Virus record (IMG/VR): IMGVR_UViG_3300032224_001922
Location: 1-39,025 of that record
DNA length: 39,025 nucleotides
DNA from: a virus
Reading direction: 5' to 3' (one strand)
In this document: positions 1,212 to 29,609 of the stretch, one piece after another
Layout of the letters: each line of letters starts with the position of its first letter
Numbering within the stretch: position 1 is the first letter of the stretch
Made by a program: the position numbers and the translations under genes
Notes under the pieces: generated by a model
What the model saw: the letters and a program-made list of their open reading frames with translations, nothing else
The model's database searches: none
Told to the model about the DNA's origin: nothing

Positions 1212-1254
1212 AAATATCTTTCAAATAAATATTAAAATTTAATATAATCATGTT

Positions 1255-1263
1255 ATATTTATA
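1255..1263 (+). promoter_or_regulatory. ATATTTATA start-proximal element
   Basis: ATATTTATA ends 7 bases before the ATG at 1271. The same nonamer, or one with a single change, recurs before at least eight other start codons in the window. Confidence 0.5.
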
Positions 1264-1270
1264 CTTGATT

Positions 1271-1885: not shown

Positions 1886-1886
1886 A

Positions 1887-1908
1887 TTTATAATTGTTTA
1901 ATTATAAA
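1887..1908 (+). other. AT-only inverted repeat between two plus-strand genes
   Basis: A 9-bp stem (TTTATAATT / AATTATAAA) with a 4-base loop follows the stop codon of the preceding gene. It has no G or C and no T-run after it, so it is at best a weak terminator or mRNA end-stabilising hairpin. Confidence 0.3.
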
Positions 1909-1913
1909 AAGTA

Positions 1914-1922
1914 ATATTTATA
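1914..1922 (+). promoter_or_regulatory. ATATTTATA start-proximal element
   Basis: A perfect ATATTTATA ends 6 bases before the ATG at 1929 of the lipoprotein gene. Confidence 0.5.
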
Positions 1923-1928
1923 ATTAAT

Positions 1929-2882: not shown

Positions 2883-2896
2883 TAAATTATAAATAA

Positions 2897-2924
2897 TTGA
2901 ATATAATTTGTAACGTGGTATAGT
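2897..2924 (+). promoter_or_regulatory. Sigma70-like promoter with extended -10
   Basis: TTGAAT (2897-2902), a 16-base spacer, and TATAGT (2919-2924) preceded by TGG give an extended -10 arrangement (CGTGGTATAGT). It points to the plus-strand genes from 2941 onward. The CGTGGTA core is shared with promoters near 16160 and 22815 on the other strand. Confidence 0.5.
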
Positions 2925-2940
2925 TCATATATATAAACAT

Positions 2941-3243
2941 ATGAGATACTATATTATAGACAATACTGTTAAAAAAGAACCATTCATTTACAATTCTGTT
3001 AGTGAGATAGTCAAACATTTGGAAACAACTGTTCAACGTAAATTTCGTCAAAATAGACAACAATACATGCAAAACCTAATTGATTTAGGTCATGGATATG
3101 ATGATCCTCAAGGTAAGGTATTTACACAATCACTTGGTGAATATTTTAATATTGGCACCGTAAGAAAAGACGGTCAACTTATAAAAGGTAATATTCATGA
3201 AGTAGAACAGTATAGTAAATACAGAACTGAAATGGGTGATTAA
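2941..3243 (+). CDS. Hypothetical protein preceding the helicase
   Basis: A 100-residue protein (MRYYIIDNTV...) with a mixed hydrophilic composition, a basic helix around KFRQNRQQYMQN and no membrane segment or metal-binding pattern. It is first in a tight plus-strand cluster behind the promoter at 2897-2924 and ends 2 bases before the helicase start, so co-expression with the helicase is likely. A helper or DNA-binding role is possible but not shown by the sequence. Confidence 0.65.
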   Translation: MRYYIIDNTVKKEPFIYNSVSEIVKHLETTVQRKFRQNRQQYMQNLIDLGHGYDDPQGKVFTQSLGEYFNIGTVRKDGQLIKGNIHEVEQYSKYRTEMGD

Positions 3244-3245
3244 AC

Positions 3246-4859
3246 ATGATTAATTTGGACGTAAAATGGAGTGATGTTTATGAGATTGAATCTAAGAATG
3301 GAATACCACTTTGGACAAGACATTGGTTGATTCCTGTGAATTGTCGTAATGAATTCTTTGTTTATTGGAAGGGTAATAGTTTTAAGTTAAAAGAAAAAGG
3401 TTATGGTGTTAAAAAAATAGATAATGATTGGTTATTGACAGAAACACATACAACTGAAGGTCAATTTTCTAAAAAGAAAATAGTGAATACAGTTAAATCT
3501 GACGAACCACTTAAATCATATGAAGTTAAAACAACTGATGGTTTACGTCCTTGGCAAGTTAATGCGGTTTCAAAATTGTGTTCTGCCATTAAGAAATGGG
3601 GATGTGCAATTGATGGTAGTGACGTAGGCGTAGGCAAAACATATAATGCATGTGGTACTGCAAGAGAATTAGATATGGACATTGTTGTAGTATGTCCAAA
3701 AGCAGTAATGGAATCTTGGAAACGAGTAATTAAGAATCATTTTAAGATGAATCATAGATTGATAGGTGTTATCAATTATGAAATGTTAAGAATGGGTAAA
3801 AAAGATAGTATGATTGCGTCTTATGTCAAGCGAAGAGATACTAGACGTAATGAATTTGTTTGGAATATTCCTAAATCTACATTAATCATTTGGGATGAAA
3901 GTCAAAAACTAAAAGGTGCAAATACAAAAAACAGTGAAACTTGTTTATCCGCATTAAAACAAGGTTATAAGATGTTATTTTGTAGTGCAACTAATGCAAC
4001 TAATCCACTTGAGTTAAAGACAGTTGGTATGGCAATTAAGTTGTTTGAAAATAGTAAACAGTATTATACTTGGTTATATGCGCATGGTGTAACTAAAGGT
4101 AGATTTGGATTGCAATTTAATGGTAATAAAGAAGTATTGAAAAAACTTCATGAAGATATATTTGTTAATAGAGGAGTAAGATTAACCAGAGATACAATTC
4201 CTAATTTTCCAGAAAGTCAAATTGATGCTGAATGTTATGATATGGAAGAAGATGCTCAAAATAAAATTAATAACATTTATTCAGAAATGGAGGCTGAATT
4301 AGCTAAGTTACAAAAGAAGATAAAGAAAGAAAGCAAGGAAAATACTAGTGAATTGACTGCAATTCTTAGGGCTAGACAAAAGATAGAATTAGTTAAGGTT
4401 CCATTATTCATTGAAATGATTGAAGAAGCAATTGAAAATGGAATGAGTGTGGTAGTATTTTGTAATTTTACTGAAACTATTGATGCTTTATCAGAAAGAC
4501 TAAATACTAAATGTATTGTTAACGGTGAAGCTAAGTATGCTAAAGATAGACAACAAAATATTGATGATTTTCAGGCGGATAAAGAAAGAATAATATTAGT
4601 TAATATTCAAGCTGGTGGTGCTGGATTAAGTTTACATGATTTGAATGGTAATCATCCACGTATGTCATTGATTAGTCCTAGTTATTCTGCAGTATTAATG
4701 CGTCAAGCTACTGGCCGAGTTTGGCGTGACAGTGCTAAAAGTAAAAGTATACAAAAGATTGTATTTGTTGCAAAAACCGTAGAAGAAAAAGTTTGTGATA
4801 GTGTAAAGCTTAAACTTGAAAATATGGATTTACTAAATGACGGAGATTTAACAACATGA
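3246..4859 (+). CDS. SNF2/DEAD-like superfamily 2 DNA helicase
   Basis: The 537-residue protein has the full SF2 motif set. A Q-like segment RPWQ sits near residue 101; Walker A reads DVGVGKT (126-132); motif II is WDESQ (216-220); motif III is CSAT (246-249); and motif VI is QATGRVWR near residue 487. The divergent DESQ box and the C-terminal GGAGLSLHD motif are typical of phage SNF2-like translocases, which drive replication, recombination or transcription-related remodelling. The helicase stop overlaps the next start as ATGA, so translation is coupled. No nuclease domain is visible. The ATPase role is firm; the precise pathway is not. Confidence 0.92.
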   Translation: MINLDVKWSDVYEIESKNGIPLWTRHWLIPVNCRNEFFVYWKGNSFKLKEKGYGVKKIDNDWLLTETHTTEGQFSKKKIVNTVKSDEPLKSYEVKTTDGLRPWQVNAVSKLCSAIKKWGCAIDGSDVGVGKTYNACGTARELDMDIVVVCPKAVMESWKRVIKNHFKMNHRLIGVINYEMLRMGKKDSMIASYVKRRDTRRNEFVWNIPKSTLIIWDESQKLKGANTKNSETCLSALKQGYKMLFCSATNATNPLELKTVGMAIKLFENSKQYYTWLYAHGVTKGRFGLQFNGNKEVLKKLHEDIFVNRGVRLTRDTIPNFPESQIDAECYDMEEDAQNKINNIYSEMEAELAKLQKKIKKESKENTSELTAILRARQKIELVKVPLFIEMIEEAIENGMSVVVFCNFTETIDALSERLNTKCIVNGEAKYAKDRQQNIDDFQADKERIILVNIQAGGAGLSLHDLNGNHPRMSLISPSYSAVLMRQATGRVWRDSAKSKSIQKIVFVAKTVEEKVCDSVKLKLENMDLLNDGDLTT

Positions 4860-5164
4860 AAAAAATAACTGTTAAGGGACATGATTGGATTGAAACAATA
4901 AACGTAGATAATACTATATTTGATGATTATATAATTGAAGCGTGTACTCAAGCATTGGAAAAAAAAATATATGAAGGTATTTTACAAGTTACTCCTGTCA
5001 TTCAAGCGTGGGAAGAAAATAAAAACAAAAAAATCAAACCAACTGTATACAATACTTATAAATTGTTAACAAATGCTGGTTTTCATACAAAAGCAGAGTT
5101 ACTCAGATTATTCTTTTTACATGAAACAAAAATTGATTTAGCCAAAGAACCTATTAAAGCTTAG
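4856..5164 (+). CDS. Hypothetical protein coupled to the helicase
   Basis: This 102-residue soluble protein (MKKITVKGHDWIET...) starts inside the helicase stop codon (ATGA at 4856-4859), an arrangement that usually links translation of partners. It is helical in its C-terminal half, with a hydrophobic stretch LLRLFFLHE, and has no recognisable motif. Coupling suggests it works with the helicase, for instance as a loader or regulator; this is inference only. Confidence 0.65.
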   Translation: MKKITVKGHDWIETINVDNTIFDDYIIEACTQALEKKIYEGILQVTPVIQAWEENKNKKIKPTVYNTYKLLTNAGFHTKAELLRLFFLHETKIDLAKEPIKA

Positions 5165-5167
5165 TAT

Positions 5168-5932
5168 ATGAATCCAATTGATATTAATGTTATATTATCT
5201 CAGATGGCTGAAATGCAGAAACAGTTATCTGAATTGCAAACTCTTAAACAAGACGTAAAAGAGATTAAACAAATTAACAGTTTTGGTGAAGATGTTGCAA
5301 AAGAAATTGCGGCAGAAGTTAAACAATTACAAGAAAATGGTATTAGTATTCCACATTTAGAAAAACAAGCAGAATTATTTTTATTTCCAAAGAGAGGTAA
5401 AAGAGGTAAGGCAGCAAGACCATTACTTGAATCTGAAATTAGAGAAGCAAGAGCAAAATCACAAAGTGCAAAAGAAACTGCTAGAAGATTAGGAGTTACA
5501 TATATAACCTATAAAAAATATGCAAAAATGTATGGTTGTCATGAAATATGTAAAACAAATTTAAGAAGAAAAATTCAAAATGCAATTAATCCTGGTAAAG
5601 GCAAATATCCATTGCATAAAATACTTAACGGTCAATTTCCTAATTTTCCTATTCACAGATTAAAAGATAAATTGATACGTTCTGATACTAAAAAATCTGA
5701 ATGTGAACAATGTGGATTTCATGAACGTAGAGTAACTGATGGTAAAATTCCATTATTGTTATGGTTTGAAGACGGTGATAAACACAATCATAAATTAGAA
5801 AATCTAAAGATTGTATGTTATAATTGTATGTTTTTATCTGGTAGAGGATATATTAGAAGAGGAACAGTACATTACAACATGGATCCTGATGTTATGCAAG
5901 GTGCAAAAAAACCAATCAAAGCAAGATTTTAA
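5168..5932 (+). CDS. HTH and HNH-derived zinc-binding protein
   Basis: Residues 8-35 form a coiled coil (MAEMQKQLSELQ). Residues about 95-120 look like a helix-turn-helix (SAKETARRLGVTYITYKKYA). Residues 179-225 resemble an HNH zinc module, with CEQC at 179-182, then WFEDGD, LENLKIVCYNC and Cys217/Cys220. In active HNH enzymes the His-His-Ile-Asp-Gly element supplies catalytic histidines; here it reads WFEDG, so the nuclease residues appear lost while the zinc cysteines remain. A DNA-binding regulator or structural role is therefore more likely than cutting. It sits 3 bases after the preceding gene in the helicase cluster. Domain reading is by eye. Confidence 0.65.
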   Translation: MNPIDINVILSQMAEMQKQLSELQTLKQDVKEIKQINSFGEDVAKEIAAEVKQLQENGISIPHLEKQAELFLFPKRGKRGKAARPLLESEIREARAKSQSAKETARRLGVTYITYKKYAKMYGCHEICKTNLRRKIQNAINPGKGKYPLHKILNGQFPNFPIHRLKDKLIRSDTKKSECEQCGFHERRVTDGKIPLLLWFEDGDKHNHKLENLKIVCYNCMFLSGRGYIRRGTVHYNMDPDVMQGAKKPIKARF

Positions 5933-5956
5933 AATTAAATTTAAAATGTTATTGTG

Positions 5957-5965
5957 ATATTTATA
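5957..5965 (+). promoter_or_regulatory. ATATTTATA start-proximal element
   Basis: A perfect ATATTTATA ends 4 bases before the ATG at 5970. Confidence 0.5.
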
Positions 5966-5969
5966 TAAT

Positions 5970-6455
5970 ATGAACGACTTAGATCATTTAATTGCAAAAC
6001 ATGGAGTAATGTCATCCTTTAGTATTGCACGGAAAATTTCTAAAAATGAATTTAAGTTGATGAATCAAAAAATTAAAAAAAATTGTAAAACTAAAAAAGA
6101 GTTTGACTTATTACTAAAAAAAGAGATAATCAAGAAAACTAATGAAAGTATTAATTTAGGTAAAATACCAGGATTAGTAGTTCCTTATCAAGAAAAAAAG
6201 AATATTGATAAAAAATCAAGTAAGTTGTTTTTGGATGATACTAAAAGAACTGCACTATTAAGTATTTTTGGTGCTTCTATTGTAGAAAAGGTTATTCATA
6301 AAAAACTTAAAAAAGATGAAATGTGTTTTTTGGTACTTACAATAGTTAATTTGCTAAAATTATCTGATTACGATTTTAAATCATTTCATCAGAAAAATGA
6401 AGAATCTATTGATGATGAAGATTTTGATGATGAAGATTTTGATGATGAAGAATAA
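5970..6455 (+). CDS. Lysine-rich hypothetical protein with acidic repeat tail
   Basis: The 161-residue protein is lysine-rich and helical for its first 145 residues, then ends in an acidic tail built from repeated DDEDF units. A short hydrophobic patch (MCFLVLTIVNLLKL) near residue 110 looks like a buried helix rather than a membrane segment. Acidic tails of this kind occur in single-stranded DNA-binding and other phage nucleoproteins, but no OB-fold is evident here. Function is unknown. Confidence 0.6.
   Translation: MNDLDHLIAKHGVMSSFSIARKISKNEFKLMNQKIKKNCKTKKEFDLLLKKEIIKKTNESINLGKIPGLVVPYQEKKNIDKKSSKLFLDDTKRTALLSIFGASIVEKVIHKKLKKDEMCFLVLTIVNLLKLSDYDFKSFHQKNEESIDDEDFDDEDFDDEE
6411..6450 (+). 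repeat. 15-bp in-frame tandem repeat (acidic tail)
   Basis: GATGATGAAGATTTT is repeated twice and followed by a 10-base partial copy. It encodes the DDEDF tail of the preceding protein and is a likely site of replication slippage in units of five residues. Confidence 0.85.
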
Positions 6456-6463
6456 TTACGGGT

Positions 6464-7588
6464 ATGAATGAAAAAGATGTTATTATGGATATATACAATA
6501 TAAATGATGTTATTAGAGAAAATAAAATTGAAAAATTAGTATTTATAACAGGTGTTACTGGCCAAGATGGTAGTCTTCTGGTTGATTATTTACTTAAAAA
6601 TACTGATTATTTTATAATCGGTGGTGCAAGACGTTTAAGTATTAAAAACCATGAGAATCTTGCACATTTGGATAATAATCCACGTTTTAAATTAGTTAAT
6701 TTTGATTTGAGTGATACGCACAGTATTAATAAAATTGTGGATAAACTAAAACCTGATTATTTTATTAATTTAGCAGCTCAAACATTTGTTGGATCATCAT
6801 GGGATTTTCCAGCACAAACATGGGAATGTAATACTACTGCTATTATTCATATTCTTGAAGCTATCAGACAACATAAACCAACTTGTAGATTTTATAACGC
6901 GGGCAGCAGTGAAGAATATGGTGATGTTGAATATATTCCGCAAGATGAAAAACATCCATCTAAACCACGTAGTCCATATGGAGCAAGTAAATCCGCCGCA
7001 AGACAATTAGTTAAAGTATACAGAGAAAGTTATAATCTATATGCAATTCAAGGATTATTGTTCAATCATGAAGGCACTAGAAGAGGTGAAGAGTTTGTTA
7101 CACGTAAAATTACAAAGGGAGTATCTAGAATTAAAAAAGCTATAGTTGAAGGTAAATCATTTGAACCTATTGAATTGGGTAATGTAAAAGCCAAAAGAGA
7201 TTGGAGTGATGCAGAAGACTTTGTTGATGGTATCTGGAAAATGTTAAACCAAAAGGCTCCAAATGAATATGTACTTTCCAGCAATGAAACACACACCATT
7301 GCAGAATTTGTATGGCATGCATTTAAAGCGGCTGATATTGAAGGTACATGGCACGGACAAGCTGAATCTGCTGAATTTAGTATTAGTACAAAAGATGCTA
7401 TTAAATATGAACCAGTGTCTTCTGTATTGGTAAAAATCAATCCTAAGTTTTATAGACCTGCTGAAGTGGACTTATTACTAGGTGATAGCACCAAAGCCAG
7501 AAAAGAATTGGGATGGAAACCAGAAACTTCATTTGAACAACTGGTTGATAAGATGGTTAAAAATGACTTAAAACAAATCGGACTATGA
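6464..7588 (+). CDS. gmd: GDP-mannose 4,6-dehydratase
   Basis: This short-chain dehydrogenase-type enzyme converts GDP-D-mannose to GDP-4-keto-6-deoxymannose, precursor of fucose, rhamnose and perosamine. The 374 residues match the usual length. The NAD(P)-binding loop TGVTGQDGS is at 29-37; the catalytic Ser/Glu region reads GSSEEYG (147-153); and Tyr172/Lys176 form the YxxxK pair in SPYGASKSA. Later signature elements NHEGTRRG, KRDWSDAEDFV and YRPAEVD are all present. No GMER or perosamine synthase is in the window, so the product may feed host enzymes or phage glycosyltransferases. Its stop overlaps the iscU start as ATGA. An internal ATG at 6485 is an alternative start. Confidence 0.95.
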   Translation: MNEKDVIMDIYNINDVIRENKIEKLVFITGVTGQDGSLLVDYLLKNTDYFIIGGARRLSIKNHENLAHLDNNPRFKLVNFDLSDTHSINKIVDKLKPDYFINLAAQTFVGSSWDFPAQTWECNTTAIIHILEAIRQHKPTCRFYNAGSSEEYGDVEYIPQDEKHPSKPRSPYGASKSAARQLVKVYRESYNLYAIQGLLFNHEGTRRGEEFVTRKITKGVSRIKKAIVEGKSFEPIELGNVKAKRDWSDAEDFVDGIWKMLNQKAPNEYVLSSNETHTIAEFVWHAFKAADIEGTWHGQAESAEFSISTKDAIKYEPVSSVLVKINPKFYRPAEVDLLLGDSTKARKELGWKPETSFEQLVDKMVKNDLKQIGL

Positions 7589-7986
7589 GTGACTCTTATA
7601 CATTATATAATGAAAAAGTAATAGATCATTTTATGAATCCACGAAATATGGGTGATTTGAAGGATGCGGATGGTGTGGGTGAGGTGGGAGCCGCCGCATG
7701 TGGTGATATCATGAAAATCACTCTTAAAATTGATGATGATACACAAACAGTAACTGATGCTAGATTTAAGACATTTGGTTGTGGTAGTGCGATAGCTGCT
7801 TCCAGTATGGCTACGGAACTAATAAAAGGCAGAACTATAGAAGAACTTCAGAAAAATTTTAACAATGATGATATTGTTACTGCGTTGGGCGGCCTCCCAC
7901 CAGTAAAAATTCATTGTAGCGTTTTGGCCACTGAGGCACTTAATGCTGCATTAGAAGATTACAAAAAGAAAAAGAAAATTAAATAA
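7585..7986 (+). CDS. iscU: IscU-type iron-sulfur cluster scaffold
   Basis: The 133-residue protein is a full-length IscU/NifU N-terminal scaffold, on which Fe-S clusters are built from IscS-derived sulfur. All three ligand cysteines are present: Cys39 in AAACGDIMK, Cys66 in TFGCGSA and Cys111 in KIHCSVLA. The adjacent Asp41 and His110 are kept. The LPPVK motif at 104-108, which the HscA chaperone recognises in bacterial IscU, is intact, so the phage protein could plug into a host Isc machine. Translation is coupled to gmd through an ATGA overlap. No cysteine desulfurase or chaperone lies in the window. The identification is firm; the role in infection is inferred. Confidence 0.95.
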   Translation: MSDSYTLYNEKVIDHFMNPRNMGDLKDADGVGEVGAAACGDIMKITLKIDDDTQTVTDARFKTFGCGSAIAASSMATELIKGRTIEELQKNFNNDDIVTALGGLPPVKIHCSVLATEALNAALEDYKKKKKIK

Positions 7987-8155
7987 ATCTACTGTTCATA
8001 AATAGGATTAAATTGTTATAATACTTTTCTAATCCTTTTTTTGTTACTCTTTTTTTTGTACTATTGATTTTATATGCGTTGATCATGTCACTTGTAACTT
8101 CCAAGTCACTTTCTTCATTCAACAGTCGAATTTTATCAATTTTATTTTTACGCAT
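7979..8155 (-). CDS. Small lysine-rich hypothetical protein (58 codons)
   Basis: An open frame from ATG 8155 to TAA 7979 encodes a 58-residue basic, helical protein (MRKNKIDKIRLLNEE...). It fills the otherwise empty 225-base gap after iscU and overlaps the iscU end by 8 bases on the opposite strand. A hairpin lies just upstream, and no clear ribosome site is seen. It is plausible as a gene but not proven. Confidence 0.4.
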   Translation of the reverse strand: MRKNKIDKIRLLNEESDLEVTSDMINAYKINSTKKRVTKKGLEKYYNNLILFMNSRFI

Positions 8156-8156
8156 A

Positions 8157-8195
8157 AAAAACTTCTGATGAATAACTATAACATCAGAAGTTTTT
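8157..8195. terminator. Bidirectional intrinsic terminator
   Basis: A 14-bp stem (8157-8170 and 8182-8195, core ACTTCTGATG / CATCAGAAGT) surrounds an 11-base loop and has A- and T-runs at its ends, so it can work on both strands. It lies past the end of the HNH gene on the minus strand and about 170 bases after iscU on the plus strand. Confidence 0.75.
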
Positions 8196-8210
8196 GTTAT
8201 AACTTTTTTA

Positions 8211-8852
8211 TTAAATAGTCAAAAAATGTTTCCAAGTATGATGTTTTGCTTCTCTAATAAAAGCAGAAATTGGCATTGGATTTGGTTCAATAGGATCTTT
8301 TCTTAATTTGATTCCAATTTCACTGTTAAGTTTATTACCCTTTTTACTATTCAATTCTTTTTCACATACAACCATATTAGTCCAAGTATCACCGCCACCT
8401 TTACTACGAGGAATAACATGGTCAATTGTAGATTGATCCTTTGACAATTTCTTACCAGTATATTGACAAATACCTTGATCTCTATTCCAAATACCATCTT
8501 TGCTAGGTTTTCCTTTAAATGTCTTAATAGGCATCTTATTGAAATTTGTAGCAATGATGACGGTTGGAACTCTAATGCTTCTTGTAGGACTATTTATGAA
8601 CAAATCCCACGGTCTAATAGACAACAACATCCATTCATCCCATGAAACGGGATTCATACTCTTTGCTTCATCAAAGATTGGTTGTCCACTATCATCCAAT
8701 TCATATTCAATATCCAATGCTAATGTAGATGGTTTACCATAAGATTCAGAACCACAAAGATCCACAATAGCATCTTTTACGGTTTTAAATCCGACTGGCT
8801 GCCAGTTAGCATTAAGATTCAAACATATAAGTTTATTTGCAACATTATTCAT
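8211..8852 (-). CDS. HNH endonuclease
   Basis: The 213-residue protein carries an HNH module in its second half: CQYTGKKL, then STIDHVIPRSKGGGDTWTNM with the catalytic His, then a C..ELNSKKGN tail. The IDHVIPRSKGG and WTNMV elements match the HNH family seen in free-standing bacterial and phage nucleases, which nick or cut DNA with one metal ion. The usual zinc CxxC pairs are incomplete (single Cys in CQYTG and VCEKE). The N-terminal 100 residues resemble the extension commonly found in this subgroup. A good Shine-Dalgarno (AAGGTGAG) lies just before the ATG at 8852. It may be a homing-type element or have a packaging or defence role. Confidence 0.88.
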   Translation of the reverse strand: MNNVANKLICLNLNANWQPVGFKTVKDAIVDLCGSESYGKPSTLALDIEYELDDSGQPIFDEAKSMNPVSWDEWMLLSIRPWDLFINSPTRSIRVPTVIIATNFNKMPIKTFKGKPSKDGIWNRDQGICQYTGKKLSKDQSTIDHVIPRSKGGGDTWTNMVVCEKELNSKKGNKLNSEIGIKLRKDPIEPNPMPISAFIREAKHHTWKHFLTI

Positions 8853-8879
8853 AACTCACCTTGTAAAAATAAGTATAGT

Positions 8880-9212
8880 TTACTTTTTATAAAGGTCAAG
8901 AGAAATTTTTTCTTTTGGTTGTAGACTTTCATCTACTCTATCAATAACCATCTGTAAACTGCCAATTTCAAACCATTCATTTTTAATGTTGGTTGCAAAA
9001 TGCTTCATTTGTTCATGTATATCTTTTTCGGCACTATAACAGTCTGGATGATGTATATAATACTCTATTTTGTAATTTCGTAAAGGACTACTTGTTTGAT
9101 ATGTACGTAGTCTTGATTTAATGTCTTCAGTGACCCCTATCTTATAATAAGACGGAAAGTTACTGTTACTAATTACATAAATATAACCTGATTTTTGTCT
9201 TTTTTCACCCAT
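8880..9212 (-). CDS. GIY-YIG-like T5orf172/MUG113-type protein
   Basis: The start is placed at ATG 9212 (110 residues) rather than the TTG at 9233, because ATATTTATT lies 6 bases before that ATG. The protein matches the T5orf172/MUG113 family, a relative of GIY-YIG nucleases: GYIYVIS at the N-terminus, YYKIGVTEDIKSRLRTYQT in the middle and a conserved AEKDIHEQ segment, ending with EWFEI. Family members occur in many phages, often in mobile or regulatory proteins. Nuclease activity is inferred from the fold. It sits between the HNH gene and a small zinc-finger gene on the same strand. Confidence 0.85.
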   Translation of the reverse strand: MGEKRQKSGYIYVISNSNFPSYYKIGVTEDIKSRLRTYQTSSPLRNYKIEYYIHHPDCYSAEKDIHEQMKHFATNIKNEWFEIGSLQMVIDRVDESLQPKEKISLDLYKK

Positions 9213-9218
9213 TTGTCC

Positions 9219-9227
9219 AATAAATAT
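9219..9227 (-). promoter_or_regulatory. ATATTTATT start-proximal element
   Basis: On the minus strand, ATATTTATT ends 6 bases before the ATG at 9212. It supports that ATG over the upstream TTG. Confidence 0.45.
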
Positions 9228-9280
9228 AGACAAATTGTAATTTTCTTTTTATTTATTTTAAGTGATACCCCTGCCACCCT

Positions 9281-9475
9281 TTATTTTTCATTCACATACA
9301 CATATTCATCACTGAACATACTATATAAATAATCATGATGTTTATCATCTAATAAATATTCATTAACATCAATAATACGACGGTCATCATCACAATGACA
9401 CTGCATATGAATTTTATCACGTTTTATCTTTGTCGCTGTATTACAGTAATTGCAGGATATAATTATATCTTCCAT
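9281..9475 (-). CDS. Small cysteine-motif hypothetical protein
   Basis: The 64-residue protein has SCNYCNT near residue 8 and MQCHCDDD near residue 29, a spacing that could bind one zinc ion, followed by an acidic, tyrosine-rich C-terminus. Such mini zinc ribbons are common among small early phage genes, but no specific family is recognised. Confidence 0.55.
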   Translation of the reverse strand: MEDIIISCNYCNTATKIKRDKIHMQCHCDDDRRIIDVNEYLLDDKHHDYLYSMFSDEYVYVNEK

Positions 9476-9562: not shown

Positions 9563-10441
9563 TTAAAATGTACAATTATTTAATAAATTTAAAAAAACTG
9601 ATTTTGTAGTCAAGTGCTTAGTAGTATGTTCAATACATTTACTACAGTATTCATTGTATATATCAATGTTTAGATTTCCGTTATTTATAAATTTATTTAT
9701 TTCTATAATTAGATTTTTTGGAAATTTTTCCATTGTAAATGGTGGACATTCTTCTATATTTGGAAAGTATGGAATACAACCATTCATTAAAATTTCATAA
9801 TGCCTTAAACAATCCCACCCCCCTTTTTTAAAGGTTAAACCAAAATATGATTTTTGATAATCTTTAAAGTAAGGAATTTCATCAATAAAAATATACGTAG
9901 AAGGATTACCAGGAATTACTTCACCGTAATTTTTTTCTTTAGTGGGAATTTTATTAACAATTAATTCTTCTGGAATACTAAAGTTAATAGGATGTAAATA
10001 ATTTGTTGGATTATGAATCAATTCTCTTTTAAAATATATTCCCTTATTAATATAATATGATCTTATTTCAGAATCATCTTCTCCATCAATAATAACAATA
10101 TTATTTTTATTATAAATTGATGACACTACATCAAAAAAAATATTACATCTAACAATTGATCCGTATATTATTATATCAAAAAATTTATTTTTTATTTTTT
10201 CATATAAATTTGATCTGTCTATATTAATTTTTGGTAATCTTCCATATAATGTAAATCCTCTTCCATATGACATTCCATTTTCTGGTACTCTATGATTCCA
10301 ATACTGTTTCATATCATCATACATGTACCAAGCTTCATTATAATCTACACAATTTTCACCAAATAAAGTTCTTGCACCATGAAAAATCATGTCATTTTGA
10401 AAATCAGGAAGATCAAAATTTGAAATATAGAGTATCTTCAT
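9563..10441 (-). CDS. Probable GT-B-like glycosyltransferase
   Basis: The 292-residue protein starts MKILYISNFDLPDFQ, like the N-terminal Rossmann strand of GT-B transferases. Its C-terminal part contains KGGWDCLRHYEILMNGCIPY, followed by EECPPFTMEKFPK. That pattern (Glu in a helix, then a Gly-Cys-Ile-Pro turn) resembles the sugar-nucleotide-binding end of viral and bacterial glycosyltransferases and exostosin-like proteins. Substrate and linkage are unknown. It overlaps the metallophosphoesterase stop-to-start by 4 bases, so the two are coupled. A non-catalytic homologue cannot be excluded. Confidence 0.6.
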   Translation of the reverse strand: MKILYISNFDLPDFQNDMIFHGARTLFGENCVDYNEAWYMYDDMKQYWNHRVPENGMSYGRGFTLYGRLPKINIDRSNLYEKIKNKFFDIIIYGSIVRCNIFFDVVSSIYNKNNIVIIDGEDDSEIRSYYINKGIYFKRELIHNPTNYLHPINFSIPEELIVNKIPTKEKNYGEVIPGNPSTYIFIDEIPYFKDYQKSYFGLTFKKGGWDCLRHYEILMNGCIPYFPNIEECPPFTMEKFPKNLIIEINKFINNGNLNIDIYNEYCSKCIEHTTKHLTTKSVFLNLLNNCTF

Positions 10442-11220
10442 TTTATATCAATATAATTCTTTAACTCCATCTTACCATTCATGATAGTAATATACTGACT
10501 AAGATTACAATCAATACAAATGTTATTTGCATCAACAATACTAACAAATCCTTCTCTGTGATATTGTGCAGCTTTACCTGTTTCCCATTGATTAGTATGT
10601 CCAACAATTTGTCTCAAATCATCAATAGGTTGAAACTCATGATCAAAATCACACCATACAATACCACCAGTCTTCAAGTTACCGCCACGAGCATGACCAG
10701 CACCATAAAACCAATGTAAGTCATCAATCTTTAATTTGGTTCTAGCATCATTATCATTTTCATCCAGATACTTGAAGATAACTTCATTTGTGTCACAAAT
10801 TGGAGGCAAAAATCGTCTATCCAAACCAGCGTGGGTTAATAGAATATCATCTACAACAATAGACCAGTGAAACTTATCTTGTACGTCTCCTCTAACTTTA
10901 CCAATAACTTTATCTATAGCATCATACTTCCATTGTTCATAACCACTACACCAAGTAGTGGGAGAATTAAACAGATAATGTAGATCATGATTACCAAATA
11001 GAGTGTAGTTCTTTGGGTTAGGAAGAAATACATCCTTTAGATATTTTGCTGTAGCAATATAATTACTAGTATCATCGAGTGTGAAACTGTCAAACCAGTC
11101 ACCCAAACAAATATTGATATCACCATCTTCTTTAGAAAGAATTGTATCAAGCTTTGTATGATTGTTATGCGGATCAGCAACAATTACAATTTTTTTATTA
11201 TTGGAACTTAACTTTAACAT
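10438..11220 (-). CDS. Calcineurin-like metallophosphoesterase
   Basis: This 260-residue enzyme has the binuclear-metal signature of the calcineurin superfamily: DPHNNH (16-21), GDWFDS (40-45), GNHD (76-79), a THAG block near residue 133 and GHTN near 207. The full metal set is present, so activity on a phosphoester is likely. Relatives include serine/threonine phosphatases, Ap4A hydrolases and phage polynucleotide phosphatases; the substrate cannot be told from sequence. A strong promoter lies at 11227-11255, and the downstream glycosyltransferase start overlaps the stop. Confidence 0.9.
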   Translation of the reverse strand: MLKLSSNNKKIVIVADPHNNHTKLDTILSKEDGDINICLGDWFDSFTLDDTSNYIATAKYLKDVFLPNPKNYTLFGNHDLHYLFNSPTTWCSGYEQWKYDAIDKVIGKVRGDVQDKFHWSIVVDDILLTHAGLDRRFLPPICDTNEVIFKYLDENDNDARTKLKIDDLHWFYGAGHARGGNLKTGGIVWCDFDHEFQPIDDLRQIVGHTNQWETGKAAQYHREGFVSIVDANNICIDCNLSQYITIMNGKMELKNYIDIK

Positions 11221-11274: not shown

Positions 11275-11520
11275 TCATAAATCTGAACTTTTTGATTTTA
11301 CTTTGATTAGTAACCATTTTACCATTTCTTTTTTGGTTGGAGTTTGACCGTCATTTTTAATGTTATAATAATCTAACTCCAAATCAAATAGTCTTTTGGT
11401 TGGCTCTAATTTAGATATCCATTTATCTGATATTGTTTCATCTGATGAAGATATGTATAATTCTTCTAACAAAAGAATAATGAATTCATATTCCACCTTT
11501 GAAACAATAATTTTTTTCAT
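11275..11520 (-). CDS. Hypothetical 81-residue protein
   Basis: A helical, charged protein (MKKIIVSKVEYEF...) with no membrane segment after the short hydrophobic IILLLEELY stretch. Its ATG overlaps the TGA of the upstream small lipoprotein (ATGA), so it is translated with it. The C-terminal TPTKKEMVKWLLIKVK looks like an amphipathic helix. No family is recognised. Confidence 0.6.
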   Translation of the reverse strand: MKKIIVSKVEYEFIILLLEELYISSSDETISDKWISKLEPTKRLFDLELDYYNIKNDGQTPTKKEMVKWLLIKVKSKSSDL

Positions 11521-11646: not shown

Positions 11647-12447
11647 TCAAAAAAATTCACCAGTTATAACATCTTTTGTAGATACTTCAATTTTTTGAAT
11701 TTCAGGAGTCATTTTGTCAATATCAGGATATTCAGATTCAATTGGATGTTTGATATTATTCAAAATGTGTTTTTTATCTTTTTTGTTTGTTGGCAATACA
11801 TAGATGTATCTTAGTTTCTTTAACTTCTTTTTAATCCAAAATGTTTTACCAATAGTCTTTTTTAGGTTTTCAACATCATTACTACCATACTTTTCAGTTA
11901 AAGTTCTACTATGAATCCAATTATAATTGGGAGGACCATCCAAACTTACAACGGAATTTTCATATGCACAAATTTCTTTTGCGTCTTGATATAACCAATT
12001 AGTTGCTTGATAGATTTTACCTGAATGTCCTTGTTCTGGATCAGCATAACTAATTAAACACTTAATATCAGGTCTATTTTGACGCAACCAATCAAAACTT
12101 TTGCCCAATGAATATGATTCAATATTCTTACCATATCCATCCGCAATCCAAAGTCTTGTTAGTTCAAATACTTGTTGAGGTTTAATAACAGTACATATAC
12201 TAGATGCACTGTCTCTACCAACAGGATGACCATATATAATAGCCCCAATCAATTTTTCACCTGCATCAAAATGTACATTGATATCAGTATACTGTTTATA
12301 ATATACACCTAAAGCAACACTACACATGGTCCATCTATGTGAATAATGATTCTTCACAATGATATCTTTTGCTACTTTTTTAGTTACTTCTCTAATAACT
12401 ACATTGGATGTTACTACAAAATTTTCTTCAGACATAATATGATTCAA
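11647..12447 (-). CDS. Mom-like DNA adenine modification enzyme
   Basis: The 266-residue protein matches the Mom family, GNAT-fold enzymes that turn adenine into N6-methylcarbamoyl-adenine in phage Mu DNA and shield it from restriction. Family hallmarks seen are KNHYSHRW (32-39), GAIIYGHPVGR (68-78), ELTRLW (95-100), SYADPEQGHSGKIYQ (133-147) and ATNWLY (148-153). The C-terminal 100 residues are basic and could bind DNA. The gene overlaps the preceding 1241-codon restriction-like gene by 20 bases (8 if ATG 12435 is used). No com-like translational activator is recognised. Recognition sequence and chemical product are unknown. Confidence 0.85.
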   Translation of the reverse strand: MNHIMSEENFVVTSNVVIREVTKKVAKDIIVKNHYSHRWTMCSVALGVYYKQYTDINVHFDAGEKLIGAIIYGHPVGRDSASSICTVIKPQQVFELTRLWIADGYGKNIESYSLGKSFDWLRQNRPDIKCLISYADPEQGHSGKIYQATNWLYQDAKEICAYENSVVSLDGPPNYNWIHSRTLTEKYGSNDVENLKKTIGKTFWIKKKLKKLRYIYVLPTNKKDKKHILNNIKHPIESEYPDIDKMTPEIQKIEVSTKDVITGEFF

Positions 12448-15400
12448 TGATACTAATCTGAGAATCAGATAACTTCAAGTATTTATATAGTGATTCATTT
12501 GTCCATTCTTGATTTAAATCAATAGACGGAAGATTATATACCACAGTATTTGTATTAAATCCACTCCATTGTGTAACATCAATAATGAATTGATAAAACT
12601 TCAATTTGAGAATATTAGTCAAATTCTTTGCTTGTTGTTCATTATCAACACAATTATAAATAGCATGATGCGTTCCAGTACAATTACTATCATACCAAGG
12701 ATTCAATCCACCAGTTCCAATTGAAATGAATACTTTAAACTGATTGTAATCAGGAATACTCTTAATAGGCTTGCCATATTTAATTGTATTTTGGTTATGA
12801 CTAACCCTTACTGTATAAATATGTTTGTTATCAATATTCAATTCATCAGAATCAATCATGTCATTGTGTTCTTTTGAATGATAATGTCCCTTCTTGTATG
12901 AGAAATCAAACTTCTTAACACGATTATTAAAAATCACATCATTAAATACACCTTGAATATCTGAGTTGAATACTGTTGGAATACAACTATCAATATCAAA
13001 TTCAACGTCACTAATTACAGTTTTATTTTTTGACATACATTCAACTTTTGTTGGGTGTGACTTCTTAATTTTACGATACAAGAAATAACAAGTATGTTTT
13101 GAATATTCAATAAAATCCTTTTGCATAGAATTGATATTCAAATATTCCAATTGATTGATCTTGATCATCTTTGGAAAGAATTGATTCTTCATGGAATTAT
13201 AAATCATCCAATTGGGGCCACTCAATCCAACAATGTATCCACCATCTTTTACAAGACCGTGTTGACGTTCAAAAAATACATCAAACTTATCAGTTTCTTT
13301 GATTGGAGGAAATGAAACAATAACGTCAAATTCCTTGGTGATATTATGAGTCAATGTATTTACACGAATGACATTATCACTGTATCCATTTTGGTTATAA
13401 CGTAACTTACTTAGAATAACATTACGTTGTTGAATCTCAAACGCATAGATCATATTCTCAATGATATGCTTTTCACGTTGTTCTGGATTAACAATGATGT
13501 TTTCAAGACCTTTCATCAGTTTGTTCTTGATAGCAATCAAAATTGAACCAGAACCACTAGAAGTATCTGCAAACTTCTTGGTTAAGTCAGTAAATTCAGA
13601 ATCAGGAATCAAATCAACCAACTTGGTTGCTTGCGCAACTGTCAAATACTTGTCACCATATTCCTGAATTGAATAATCATCTTCAGTAAGATAATTAACA
13701 ATCTTTTCAGGATTTTCCTTGGCAAATTGATTGAAGAATACAATTTTTTGATTTAGTTGCATCTTATCAACAACATAAAGATCCATGATCTTAATATAAG
13801 TCTCAATATCAACCTTATTGATCATTTCAAATTCTTCACAGATAACGTCATTCTTACGAAGTTCCATTATCAATTCATGATACGTATTGAACTTGAAATT
13901 GGTCAAAATACACGCCCAGGGCCAATTAGAAAGAAGAAATTGCGCCTTCAATTCAGGATCTTTTTCCTTTTTAGTCTTTTTGCCTGTAATCTTTACTTTG
14001 AGATCCTTATTTTTTCCGGTATTAATACCATTACCAGTAAGATCAGCAATAAAATCATTGACCTTTGGTTTCTTAATAAATGTAGATAGATTATCAACAA
14101 GATCTTTTACTTCACTGTTAAAGTTGGTGATAACACCACTAGTAGTAAAGTTCTTGATACCCATAATATCAATAAACTGTTGATGCAATTGTTTGATAAA
14201 GGTATTAGGAGAATCCAATTCAACAAAATTAAACCCATCATTACTGATTTGAACAGGTGATGACTTCAAACGTTTTTCTAGAATAACCTCATAACTCAAC
14301 TTCTTATGAAGATGACTATAGTGTACTGATGTAGAATACATCTCCAACATACGTGACGGTAGAGTGTCAATTACAATTACCTTCTTACGGTCAGGTCCAG
14401 CAGTACGGCAACGATAACTGGTCTGAATATAATTAGCATATGACTTAGTATCATCACTGTGAATGACACAATCACACAAACGTAGAGTCACACCAACACG
14501 ACATTGATCAACAACAATGATAATAGACTTCTTTTCCTTTGTAGGCATGAAGTCACTATTCATTTTTGCCAACAACTTCTTATTGTTAGATTCCAACTTA
14601 GAATTGGTGATGTGAATATTATAATTATCTGAAATGGTTGGAATTGAATACAACAGTTCCCGCAACTTTTCTTGTGTAGGAATCTTATCTACTGTAATAA
14701 GAATAGAACGTGGATTATGCATCAGAATAGGGCTACCATCCATTGCAATGTCAGATCCAACACCAAACATCTTACGATAGAAGTTATAAATTGCCAACTT
14801 ATACTTGAATTCATCATCTTCAATGGTAAATGCCTTTGACCAAGTGAAAAATTCATTCTTAGTGAAATAATTGCCAAGGTTCTCCTTAAGAAGTTCTGTA
14901 GCATTCAAACCATACCAATTAATTGTAGGAAATTGTGTATAACGTGCATCAACGGACTTATACGTCTGTTCATCTTCCATATCATACAAGTCAGTGTTTT
15001 CAACGTTGAATGATCCAAGAATCAGATTCTTTTCAGGTGTTGCAGATGATCCAAGAACATACTTGAACTTAAGTGTACAGAGTGCTTCTTTAACTTTGTC
15101 AGTTTCAGCACCATAATGTACTTCATCAATGATGACTACATCAAAAGAATAATTAGAGAAGTTCTTGAACTTGGGTTTGTCAAAATCCTTAAAATCTTGA
15201 AGTGAGACCAAAACAAAGTTTATACTGTCAGACTTAAGTATAATTTCTTTAATATTGTCATGTGAAACATTAATCACATTCCATCCTTCAAAAACAGTAT
15301 AATTGTTGATTGTAGCTTCCCACTGAGCATTCAGAATAGGAAAGTGGGTAAGAAGAAGAATATTCTTAGCATTTAACTTCTTAGCCATATAACAACAAGT

Positions 15401-16153
15401 AATAGACTTACCAGACCGTGGCAAATGATTGAACAAATAGCTAAGAGACTTGTTCTTAGTGTTATTGTCAAAGTATGCAGCACAGTTATTATGTGCATTA
15501 ACTTGATGTGGCATCAAATCAAGAACTGCTCGCTCACCACGGATGTATTCATTGTAATTGTCATTATCAAAGTTTACGTCACTAAACACTTCAATCAGCT
15601 TATTGAAAATCTGACTAATGTCTTTAAGATCAATGATAATTACCTTGTTACGAAGTTCTTTGATGTATGACGGTGCAGAAGATAGAGATAATTCATTCTT
15701 ATCCTTGACAATTGCACCATAATAAATATTGAACTTTTTGTATCCGTCCATGGTTTCAATCAAACGAAGACCATCCATTTCCAAGTCAGACCATGTGGTT
15801 GTGTTGGTGGAATTAAAGTTCTTAATCTTGGAACTGAACGCAAAGATTGTTTCTGAATTTGGTTCAATGCCAAGGATGTCAATACGACCACTTGACTTGG
15901 TGCCAAATGAAACGTTCTTGATGTTAGTTACGGTTTGATTCTGTTCAATGAGGAAGATTTGATCCTTGACCCCAAAATTAAAGGTTGACAGATCAATTTT
16001 GGACAGAATTGACAACTTGATGACAGCTTCAACAAATTTACCAATTTCAGATTCAGAACATTGAGAAATCAAAGTCTCAAAGGTTCCGTTGAAATTGGTG
16101 AACTTGGAAATGTCCTTGGTCTTGAGAAAATCTTTAACTAGTGTCTCAGTCAT
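12428..16153 (-). CDS. Nuclease-like/SF2 helicase/adenine methyltransferase-like fusion protein
   Basis: This 1241-residue protein has the layout of single-polypeptide restriction enzymes. Residues about 85-115 hold a PD-(D/E)xK-like segment (GRIDILGI, then FAFSSK) in which the usual Glu/Gln before Ser-Lys is Ser. The SF2 ATPase follows, with Walker A PRSGKS (245-250), DEVH (343-346), SAT (370-372) and motif VI QTSYRCR (577-583). An Eco57I-like methyltransferase region has motif I ADTSSGSGS (862-870), but motif IV is SFPPI (947-951) instead of (N/D)PP(Y/F). The C-terminal 250 residues resemble a target-recognition domain. It shares an operon with the Mom-like gene. Helicase activity is likely; cutting and methylation are doubtful. 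Confidence 0.85.
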   Translation of the reverse strand: MTETLVKDFLKTKDISKFTNFNGTFETLISQCSESEIGKFVEAVIKLSILSKIDLSTFNFGVKDQIFLIEQNQTVTNIKNVSFGTKSSGRIDILGIEPNSETIFAFSSKIKNFNSTNTTTWSDLEMDGLRLIETMDGYKKFNIYYGAIVKDKNELSLSSAPSYIKELRNKVIIIDLKDISQIFNKLIEVFSDVNFDNDNYNEYIRGERAVLDLMPHQVNAHNNCAAYFDNNTKNKSLSYLFNHLPRSGKSITCCYMAKKLNAKNILLLTHFPILNAQWEATINNYTVFEGWNVINVSHDNIKEIILKSDSINFVLVSLQDFKDFDKPKFKNFSNYSFDVVIIDEVHYGAETDKVKEALCTLKFKYVLGSSATPEKNLILGSFNVENTDLYDMEDEQTYKSVDARYTQFPTINWYGLNATELLKENLGNYFTKNEFFTWSKAFTIEDDEFKYKLAIYNFYRKMFGVGSDIAMDGSPILMHNPRSILITVDKIPTQEKLRELLYSIPTISDNYNIHITNSKLESNNKKLLAKMNSDFMPTKEKKSIIIVVDQCRVGVTLRLCDCVIHSDDTKSYANYIQTSYRCRTAGPDRKKVIVIDTLPSRMLEMYSTSVHYSHLHKKLSYEVILEKRLKSSPVQISNDGFNFVELDSPNTFIKQLHQQFIDIMGIKNFTTSGVITNFNSEVKDLVDNLSTFIKKPKVNDFIADLTGNGINTGKNKDLKVKITGKKTKKEKDPELKAQFLLSNWPWACILTNFKFNTYHELIMELRKNDVICEEFEMINKVDIETYIKIMDLYVVDKMQLNQKIVFFNQFAKENPEKIVNYLTEDDYSIQEYGDKYLTVAQATKLVDLIPDSEFTDLTKKFADTSSGSGSILIAIKNKLMKGLENIIVNPEQREKHIIENMIYAFEIQQRNVILSKLRYNQNGYSDNVIRVNTLTHNITKEFDVIVSFPPIKETDKFDVFFERQHGLVKDGGYIVGLSGPNWMIYNSMKNQFFPKMIKINQLEYLNINSMQKDFIEYSKHTCYFLYRKIKKSHPTKVECMSKNKTVISDVEFDIDSCIPTVFNSDIQGVFNDVIFNNRVKKFDFSYKKGHYHSKEHNDMIDSDELNIDNKHIYTVRVSHNQNTIKYGKPIKSIPDYNQFKVFISIGTGGLNPWYDSNCTGTHHAIYNCVDNEQQAKNLTNILKLKFYQFIIDVTQWSGFNTNTVVYNLPSIDLNQEWTNESLYKYLKLSDSQISIIESYYV

Positions 16154-16158
16154 CCTTT

Positions 16159-16187
16159 AAATTTACCACGGATTTAGAGAAAATCAA
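16159..16187 (-). promoter_or_regulatory. Probable promoter for the restriction-like/Mom operon
   Basis: On the minus strand a TTGATT box, about 16 bases, then TAAATT preceded by CGTGG form a weak -35 with an extended -10. The stretch AATCCGTGGTAA is identical to one in the DNA ligase promoter near 22815. AAAGG lies directly before the ATG at 16153. Confidence 0.45.
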
Positions 16188-16930
16188 GAAGTTTTTGTTG
16201 GCTTTATGTTGAGTAAACCATTAATTATATTTTTGTTTTTATCTTCTATATATTCTTTGAAAGAATTATTGTTTCCGTGAATAAAACATGGTTTTGTGTT
16301 GTCAAGTGAATTTATTAATCTATTTTCAAAAATATTATATTGTGATATATCTCTACCATGTAAACAGAGTGCAATTGTACTATTTACATCATTTTTTGTT
16401 TTTATTCCTTCATTTATTAATCTTGTCATTAAGGACCATGCGTGTTGATCATCATAAAATTGAATGGTATCAATTGCAAAACTATAATCCATAAGTTTTC
16501 TAATTTTAGAATTTATACCCATATACATTCCACAATTAATATAGTCTTTATTTGGATAAAATTTATCTATATTATTTAACATAGGCCAACAATTCTTTTC
16601 ATGACCAAATACTATATCAGCGTTAAACAATTTAAATTTTTCTAATACTTCTTCTGGTCCTGTTAATGGGAATATATCAAAATGATCTATGTATAAAATA
16701 ATTTCATCATTATCATATTTTTCTAGTTCATTATAGAATTGTTTCATTTTAAAGTCAAAATATGATCCTGGTGAAGGTAGTTGGCCGTAACGGTCAGATT
16801 TGTACTCAATCTCAATCAGATCATAATCATAATTAAAATATTTAAGTTTATCAATTAATTTATTAAATAAAAATAATTGTAAACTTTGAATTTCTGTGTA
16901 TTTTTTGTTTATTAAAAGTACAGTTTTCAT
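16184..16930 (-). CDS. PLOD-type glycosyltransferase, copy 2
   Basis: The start is set at ATG 16930, which overlaps the upstream stop as ATGA and aligns with the start of the neighbouring paralogue. The 248-residue protein resembles the glycosyltransferase domain of lysyl hydroxylase LH3/PLOD and procollagen galactosyltransferases. Motifs seen are ILYIDHFDIF (DxxD, metal and nucleotide sugar), a conserved GHEKNCWP, FYPN and INCGMYMG, a DDQHAW acid pair, and a C-terminal FIHGN. These are GT-A enzymes that use UDP-sugars. The target is unknown. It is about half identical by eye to the gene directly upstream. Confidence 0.82.
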   Translation of the reverse strand: MKTVLLINKKYTEIQSLQLFLFNKLIDKLKYFNYDYDLIEIEYKSDRYGQLPSPGSYFDFKMKQFYNELEKYDNDEIILYIDHFDIFPLTGPEEVLEKFKLFNADIVFGHEKNCWPMLNNIDKFYPNKDYINCGMYMGINSKIRKLMDYSFAIDTIQFYDDQHAWSLMTRLINEGIKTKNDVNSTIALCLHGRDISQYNIFENRLINSLDNTKPCFIHGNNNSFKEYIEDKNKNIINGLLNIKPTKTS

Positions 16931-17655
16931 ACCCAAACTGATTTTATTGGTTCATTTAACATCATATCATTATATGTACCACCATTTGCATGTAGAATAC
17001 AAGGTTTAATTTTTGTATCTTTATTAATTAATCTATCATCAATAGTATCAAACTGATTTAAATCATTTATATCCAAGTTAAATATCAATTCACGGTTTAA
17101 ATCAACTTCAACTTTGATGCCTTCTCTCATTAGTTTGGTTAAAATTAGAAATGCGTGTTGGTCATCATAAAACCTTAGACAATTTAAATGCATGCAATAT
17201 TCCATCAATTTTCTGATCTTAGAGTTTACGCCTATATAAACGCCCGCATTAATAAAATCTCCGTTAGGGTAGAATTTGGGTTCATTATTTAGATTAGGCC
17301 AACAATTTTTTTCATGACCAAATACTATATCAGCGTTAAATGATTTAAATTTTTCTAAAATCTCATTTTCATCTGTTAAAAAATATGTGTCAAATGCATC
17401 AGTGTATAATATAATTTCATCTGGAGGATAATCACCTAGAATTTCATAAAACAATTCTAATTTGAAATTAAAAAATGAGTGTGGTTGTGGTAATGAAGGT
17501 TTATAATCTGGAAAATCTGAACTGACATAATCTTTTATATGCAGATCAAAATTGATATTTTTATCCTTTAATTTTTTTAAAAGTTTTGTATATGCGTCTT
17601 TATTATATCTATCAGACTTTTCATATTCTTTATTTAATAGTAATATTGTTTTCAT
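16927..17655 (-). CDS. PLOD-type glycosyltransferase, copy 1
   Basis: This 242-residue protein is a paralogue of its downstream neighbour, sharing the opening MKTILLLNK, the DxxD site ILYTDAFDTYF, NADIVFGHEKNCWP, the FYPNGDFINAGVY block, RFYDDQHAF and the C-terminal CILHANGG. A tandem duplication is the simplest origin. The same fold decorates hydroxylysine in collagens in animals and mimivirus, but no collagen-like Gly-X-Y protein is visible in this window. The two copies may act on different acceptors. Translation is coupled to the second copy through an ATGA overlap. Confidence 0.82.
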   Translation of the reverse strand: MKTILLLNKEYEKSDRYNKDAYTKLLKKLKDKNINFDLHIKDYVSSDFPDYKPSLPQPHSFFNFKLELFYEILGDYPPDEIILYTDAFDTYFLTDENEILEKFKSFNADIVFGHEKNCWPNLNNEPKFYPNGDFINAGVYIGVNSKIRKLMEYCMHLNCLRFYDDQHAFLILTKLMREGIKVEVDLNRELIFNLDINDLNQFDTIDDRLINKDTKIKPCILHANGGTYNDMMLNEPIKSVWV

Positions 17656-17661
17656 TAGTTA

Positions 17662-18000
17662 TTATTTCCACAAAATTTGTAATATTACAATAAATAAACT
17701 TAATCCTACCAATGTCATAGTTTTTAAAGTTAATCTTTCATTGAAATATATTTGAGTCAATACTGTGAACATTATGATGCCAATACTGAAAGTGAATATT
17801 CTGTTTGGCCAGATTTTACCTTCAAATACTTCAGCTAAAATTTTAGCTGCGTAAATTGATAAAATTGTATTTGGTATACTTAAAAATATTAAATACCATT
17901 GATACTTTTTGTAAAATTCATGAATAAATTGTCCATATAACTGGTGCCAACCAATTATATAGACAAATATTAATATAGCTAATGCAATTAATAATTTCAC
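17662..18000 (-). CDS. Small multispanning membrane protein (GTG start)
   Basis: This 112-residue protein starts with GTG, overlapping the stop of the upstream gene (GTGA at 17997-18000). It has about four hydrophobic segments: residues 2-17, 35-55, 70-85 and 93-111. The last two, separated by FNERLTLK, recall the last helix pair of small drug/metabolite transporters (SMR/EamA), though similarity is weak. Transport function is only a guess. Confidence 0.6.
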   Translation of the reverse strand: MKLLIALAILIFVYIIGWHQLYGQFIHEFYKKYQWYLIFLSIPNTILSIYAAKILAEVFEGKIWPNRIFTFSIGIIMFTVLTQIYFNERLTLKTMTLVGLSLFIVILQILWK

Positions 18001-29513: not shown

Positions 29514-29609
29514 AAAATTATAATTCAAATTCCTTTCCGTCAAAATAAGCTTTACATCTTACTCTGAAAGAACCTTATCAAGCAGTTTATTGTTAATAAT
29601 CATATATAC

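Follow-up and report, generated by a model that had tools for sequence, protein, structure and literature searches.

A Mom-family DNA modification gene overlapping a restriction-enzyme-like fusion gene with an altered methyltransferase motif in a phage genome fragment

The virus record IMGVR_UViG_3300032224_001922 of IMG/VR (positions 1 to 39,025; referred to here as the window, a stretch of 39,025 bases that seems to be part of a larger phage genome) contains a gene of the Mom family of DNA adenine modification enzymes, the start of which lies within the end of a gene for a restriction-enzyme-like fusion protein of 1241 residues. This arrangement raises the question of whether the two products act together, as a first-pass annotation of the window had proposed in suggesting a modification-restriction pair or, alternatively, a fusion that recognizes sequences on behalf of Mom. 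We tentatively prefer to read the two phage genes as a restriction-modification-like module, with Mom taking the place of a methylation activity that the fusion would have lost. This reading is favored because the catalytic motif IV of the methyltransferase part is replaced while the recognition parts and the ATPase residues are kept and the genes overlap; because the cassette holding both genes splits neighbors that adjoin in sibling phages, and its Mom is not the lineage's own; and because the fused relatives of the large protein are of restriction type by annotation and domain order.

The gene pair and its altered methyltransferase

The features of the gene pair, all on the minus strand, are as follows.
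11647..12435, minus: Mom-family DNA adenine modification gene (TTG frame from 12447; PF25680, phrog_1384, 8bv8)
12428..16153, minus: restriction-enzyme-like fusion, 1241 residues (intact frame, domain matches, colinear plasmid relatives)
12428..12435, minus: overlap ATGTCTGA, 8 nucleotides, with the Mom start within the end of the fusion
15539..16066, minus: N-terminal nuclease-like region, residues ~30-205 (read from the sequence; candidate D92, K109, E125)
14294..15541, minus: SF2 ATPase/translocase, residues 205-620 (ResIII, alignment of 34 sequences, 4xqk match)
13709..14296, minus: region between ATPase and methyltransferase, residues 620-815; a coupler by position
13124..13711, minus: gamma-class N6-adenine methyltransferase fold, residues 815-1010 (structural matches to CamA 7lni and LlaBIII)
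13301..13330, minus: altered catalytic motif IV, residues 942-951
12428..13126, minus: C-terminal region resembling a target-recognition domain (TRD), residues 1010-1241 (model match, alignment with phage protein L244)

The fusion reads from 16153 to 12428 with an ATG start and is followed by Mom, which ends at 11647. The likelier start of Mom is the ATG at 12435, giving 262 residues, and the overlap described in the first-pass annotation is then the 8 nucleotides ATGTCTGA; only the alternative TTG at 12447 would extend it to 20. Such a layout permits translational coupling, and Mom is probably coupled to the fusion in this way. The additional claim that both genes follow one promoter found no support, as promoter-like matches in the window were at chance level (59 versus 56.6 ± 8.1 in shuffled sequences) and the fusion is directly preceded on the same strand by two GT_PLOD glycosyltransferase genes, the nearer of them 30 nucleotides away and overlapping the other by 10.

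Membership of the smaller protein in the Mom family is beyond doubt, as that annotation had recognized. Residues 16-225 matched PF25680 at 1.2e-46 (159.4 bits; curated cut-off 27.1), and matches were also obtained to phrog_1384 (9e-47) and to the solved Mom 8bv8 (1.4e-9), with the HYS, ELxR, S[FY]AD and YQA blocks aligned. Adenine modification is the predicted activity; the Mom reaction acts on the N6 position of adenine.

The fusion is colinear with plasmid-encoded fusions annotated as 'Eco57I restriction-modification methylase', and for the ATPase, methyltransferase and TRD its domain order is that of ATP-dependent single-chain restriction enzymes. A ResIII match (1.2e-16) covers residues 212-374, a Helicase_C match at residues 479-582 falls just below the cut-off, and K249, D343-E344, Q577 and R581 do not vary among 34 aligned sequences. 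The modeled ATPase matched LlaBIII (4xqk) with a Z score of 18.3 over 373 residues, with many SF2 proteins scoring equally well or better; structural matches to SNF2, XPB and RadD, being of a kind common to SF2 proteins, were not counted as kinship. PADLOC returned a weak Cas3-like helicase match only. The putative coupler gave a weak DUF5724 match below the cut-off and was modeled as helices at low confidence. Taken together, the earlier description of a nuclease-like/helicase/methyltransferase-like protein stands for the helicase (ResIII) and for the methyltransferase fold, with the qualifications that motif IV is altered and that "nuclease-like" is a reading of a motif.

The model of residues 815-1241 had a mean predicted local distance difference test (pLDDT) score of 55.6, higher in the core at ~840-910. 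Its structural matches included, among others, CamA (7lni; Z 20.1), BrxX (18.4) and LlaBIII (4xqk; 16.5), and a family search gave a weak methyltransferase match at residues 900-987. The closest full-length relative of the methyltransferase-TRD part, an active-looking phage protein (L244:1746-3089), aligned with 127 bits and 27% identity over 430 alignment columns that extend through the TRD. Where this relative has GNPPF and all 39 alignable methyltransferases, from 39 loci, have GNPPY (consensus FDVIxGNPPY), the fusion has SFPPI within FDVIVSFPPI. Motif I (DTSSGSG) is retained and is closer to canonical than in most relatives, 30 of the 39 having Lys at the first Gly. In LlaGI, N1018 makes contact with the flipped adenine at N6, and Y1021 stacks on the same base (PMC4872093). 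Since both of these motif IV residues are replaced in the fusion, methyltransferase catalysis has probably been lost. The retention of motif I, the fold and the TRD argues that recognition persists, and a site-reading role without methylation would fit an altered motif IV beside an intact motif I.

Two other explanations of the altered motif were considered. The methyltransferase may be active despite its unusual motif IV, making the fusion a complete Type ISP-like restriction-modification enzyme. Motif I and the fold would allow this, but we regard it as highly improbable given that both residues known to contact adenine in LlaGI are replaced (PMC4872093) and that none of the 39 aligned relatives lacks them. 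Alternatively, the fusion could be a modification-dependent attacker in which a more hydrophobic pocket (F948, I951) reads host N6-methyladenine and Mom keeps phage adenines unmethylated or unread. The exchange of polar Asn and Tyr for Phe and Ile, the action of Mom at the same N6 position, and the presence of SauUSI, an ATP-dependent modification-dependent enzyme, among the structural neighbors of the ATPase would all accord with such an attacker; however, the methyl pocket depends on two residues and the ATPase match is of a kind seen for SF2 proteins in general, and we consider this explanation very doubtful.

The N-terminal region is less clear. Residues 1-210 had no Pfam match above cut-off, and no relative of the N-terminus was found in phages or plasmids, or in 395 Bacteroidota genomes, where a query of residues 1-305 matched through its ATPase part only. 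The model has a pLDDT of ~30 for most of residues 56-205 and is unusable past about residue 50. The sequence itself contains GRID92ILG ... FAFS107SK109 followed by E125, a candidate site resembling PD-(D/E)XK, with S107 where E or Q is usual and E125 as a displaced Glu. We dropped the idea of a dead nuclease, suggested by the absent E/Q, because displaced-acid variants of the form PDX21-53KX12-13E exist (PMC4652773). The spacing in the fusion, with 16 residues between D92 and K109 and 15 between K109 and E125, is near but outside this form, and no Pro precedes D92.

These non-canonical residues bear on the possibility that the fusion does not cut at all and instead serves as a targeting or translocation platform that brings Mom to its sites or along the DNA. 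The retention of the recognition parts and ATPase beside a replaced methylation site would suit a platform, and the gene overlap favors co-assembly. Set against this, D92, K109 and E125 may form a displaced-acid nuclease site. Furthermore, Mom of phage Mu works, to our knowledge, without a restriction-like partner, none being encoded with it, and the same presumably holds for the Moms of related phages that have no such partner nearby. We therefore judge a platform role to be improbable.

A cassette in a variable slot

The two genes share an interval with the glycosyltransferase genes, bounded by two genes of the conserved backbone.
16184..16936, minus: GT_PLOD-type glycosyltransferase, in the cassette (PF25342, 1.9e-21; no counterpart in sibling loci)
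16927..17655, minus: second GT_PLOD-type glycosyltransferase, in the cassette (PF25342, 1.2e-22; no match in 30 Mom-bearing records)
17662..18000, minus: conserved backbone gene at one flank of the cassette (71-75% identity in closer siblings, 55-59% in distant ones)
11275..11520, minus: conserved backbone gene at the other flank (43-51% identity in sibling loci)

A search with the metallophosphatase gene at 10438-11220, which adjoins the flank at 11275..11520 and is 66-83% identical in sibling loci, retrieved 31 related loci. In 10 of the 31 (L118-L121, L123-L126, L129 and L130), the homologues of the two flanking genes lie 0.6-1.4 kb apart. The same interval spans 6.1 kb in the window, where both glycosyltransferase genes lie in it together with the fusion and Mom. 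The sibling slot, in the loci examined gene by gene, is occupied by a gene of ~140 residues, sometimes accompanied by another small gene or, in L123, by a GIY-YIG gene. Cassette and window have the same G+C content (30.2%), with the glycosyltransferases lower (24.9%) and the fusion higher (32.4%). Relative to the siblings, the cassette has thus been inserted into a variable slot or has replaced its content, the direction of change being inferred from how many siblings do not carry it.

The closest record, G003, shows 86-94% identity to the window in most proteins that the two have in common within window positions 897-9475, a few genes being at 50-75%, and carries a Mom at 84 kb that by pairwise comparison is only 47-48% identical to the window Mom. 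In three siblings whose slot is empty, yet another Mom is present, at 41-42% identity. Given these values against 86-94% for most G003 proteins, the window Mom is not an orthologue of the others and, as G003 holds a differing Mom elsewhere, it arrived separately. A Mom that arrived with the fusion, or was recruited by it, would fit a dedicated partner; however, Moms lacking such a partner also accumulate in related phages, as in the tandem sets of L067 and L070 described below.

The variable slot is also the starting point of the main rival explanation, namely that the genes are neighbors without a joint function: Mom would be an ordinary anti-restriction protein and the fusion an independent or decaying restriction-type enzyme, directed for instance at superinfecting phages, both placed with two glycosyltransferases in the same slot. 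The changing content of this slot among siblings (the ~140-residue gene, sometimes the GIY-YIG gene) agrees with such chance neighborhood, as do the many related phages in which Mom lacks such a partner, and the loss of motif IV could mark the onset of decay. However, the frame is intact over 1241 codons, the ATPase residues, motif I and the TRD are kept, and the genes overlap; moreover, an enzyme that cuts DNA but does not itself methylate it would depend on some other protection. On balance, we consider unlinked neighbors rather unlikely, though less so than a platform role.

Several further observations concern Mom and other genes of this phage. In two large phages (L067:6107-8358 and L070:3270-5506), three differing Mom paralogues stand in tandem, each overlapping the next by ~10 nucleotides. 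A divergent Mom-like gene follows a gene for a 303-residue protein in a sibling phage (L250:514-2079, record G431) and may point to a further Mom partner. A 591-residue protein encoded at 32205-33980 on the minus strand of the window contains ankyrin repeats, and its C-terminus matched the adenylate/guanylate cyclase family (PF00211, 24.0 bits against a cut-off of 21.9). In several related phages, copies of this protein at up to ~92% identity are encoded a short distance upstream of Mom. A 2OG-Fe(II) oxygenase (PF13640, 1.7e-7) is encoded at 28902-29543 on the minus strand and a second SF2 helicase at 3246-4859 on the plus strand.

Weighing a two-gene module

In the module that we prefer, the fusion would recognize a DNA site through its methyltransferase-TRD part, translocate by means of its SF2 ATPase and cut with its N-terminal nuclease. 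The methyltransferase part would only recognize the site and probe for a free adenine, with no methylation taking place, while Mom would place a bulky N6 group on phage adenines. The fusion could then attack unmarked DNA, either the host chromosome or that of rival phages. The more specific proposal that a Type ISP-like methyltransferase has become a site-reading pseudo-enzyme that hands the protective mark to Mom, in a phage cassette directed against host or competitor DNA, is possible but somewhat more doubtful than the module as such. The loss of methylation, the nuclease activity, the blocking of the fusion by the Mom mark and the nature of the target DNA are all inferred.

A number of points weigh against such a module. 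Its weakest link is the putative N-terminal nuclease. The sites marked by Mom need not include the one read by the fusion; Mu Mom marks short, degenerate sites and no long specific one, so that agreement with the site of the fusion is not assured. Related phages hold Moms without such a partner nearby, which implies that Mom needs none. The pair is a single example: no relative of the fusion was found in the fetched flanks of 80 Mom loci, nor by whole-record search of 49 Mom-bearing or sibling phage records (47 distinct; fragments), and no Mom was found near ~110 loci of fusion relatives. As these records are fragmentary and the window is the only positive control, the fusion-Mom pair is to be considered rare rather than unique. 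IMG/VR scans by protein or alignment likewise returned only distant relatives of the fusion or none, as did a DNA-pattern scan, the pattern of which was not first checked on the window. A match to Sphingomonas phage PAU (E = 8) was dropped.

The pairing of modification with restriction put forward in the first-pass annotation has thus gained the replaced motif IV, the gene overlap and a shared cassette absent from siblings, and is held back by the candidate status of the nuclease and the lack of a second pair. If it is correct, the mark of an ATP-dependent restriction enzyme would be exchangeable for a non-methyl modification by the loss of one motif and the gain of one gene, phages would deploy it offensively or to counter rivals, and Mom-based phage restriction-modification, so far predicted, would become testable as a two-gene system. 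If it is not, the fusion would still be a clear case of an altered methyltransferase within a large, intact phage protein.

Comparison with known systems

The Type ISP enzymes LlaBIII and LlaGI resemble the fusion in combining, in a single chain, an ATPase, a coupler region (in the fusion a coupler by position), a gamma-class N6-adenine methyltransferase and a C-terminal TRD. They are longer (~1580 residues versus 1241), and phmmer found no similarity between them and the fusion. In contrast to these enzymes, the fusion has a replaced motif IV and an overlapping Mom gene; its N-terminus, which has no family match above cut-off, is nuclease-like by its motif and may or may not be of Mrr type. 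Because SFPPI departs from the catalytic NPPY motif of Type ISP enzymes, and because an Mrr-type nuclease is at most putative here, we do not class the fusion as Type ISP.

The best ATPase matches (22-26% identity, at most 100 bits) were to GIY-YIG/T5orf172 - helicase - Eco57I systems, which are fused (~1400 residues) or split, occur on plasmids, genomes, prophages and viral contigs, and have a related methyltransferase-TRD part. These systems have a GIY-YIG N-terminus, GNPPY and sometimes an adjacent N-6 methylase gene, none of which are present in the window. The fusion has neither a GIY-YIG motif nor a T5orf172 match, whereas GIY-YIG was recognized, by pattern or by eye, in nearly all relatives; likewise it has no match to the Eco57I domain PF07669, compared with 77-125 bits in three relatives. 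It was kept out of this family because of these two results.

Synechococcus phage S-CAM7 carries a split restriction-modification-like set (L081:4373-8186) of nuclease-like protein, GNPPY methyltransferase, helicase and a half-methyltransferase with motif I only, with weak matches to the fusion. It differs in consisting of four separate genes, in keeping GNPPY and in having no Mom relative detected there. Proteins of ~134 residues from cyanophages (L082:5980-6384 and phrog_4376) similarly comprise no more of an N6-adenine methyltransferase than its N-terminal half with motif I.

Mu Mom, a methylcarbamoylase (8bv8), and the solitary Moms of other phages belong to the same family as the window Mom and have sequence blocks in common with it; the window Mom differs in overlapping a restriction-like gene. 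Within the part of the literature covered, no paper describing this architecture was found. The nearest precedent in logic is that of the Mom-restriction endonuclease (REase) fusions of jumbo phages, predicted to be phage restriction-modification systems, in which Mom would mark phage DNA and the linked nuclease would attack unmarked DNA (PMC7824862). There, an REase fold is fused to Mom itself, whereas the partner in the window is encoded apart from Mom, as an ATP-dependent translocase-like protein whose methyltransferase is altered. The general idea of Mom acting with a nuclease has already been predicted (PMC7824862), and the architecture in the window is a variant of it.
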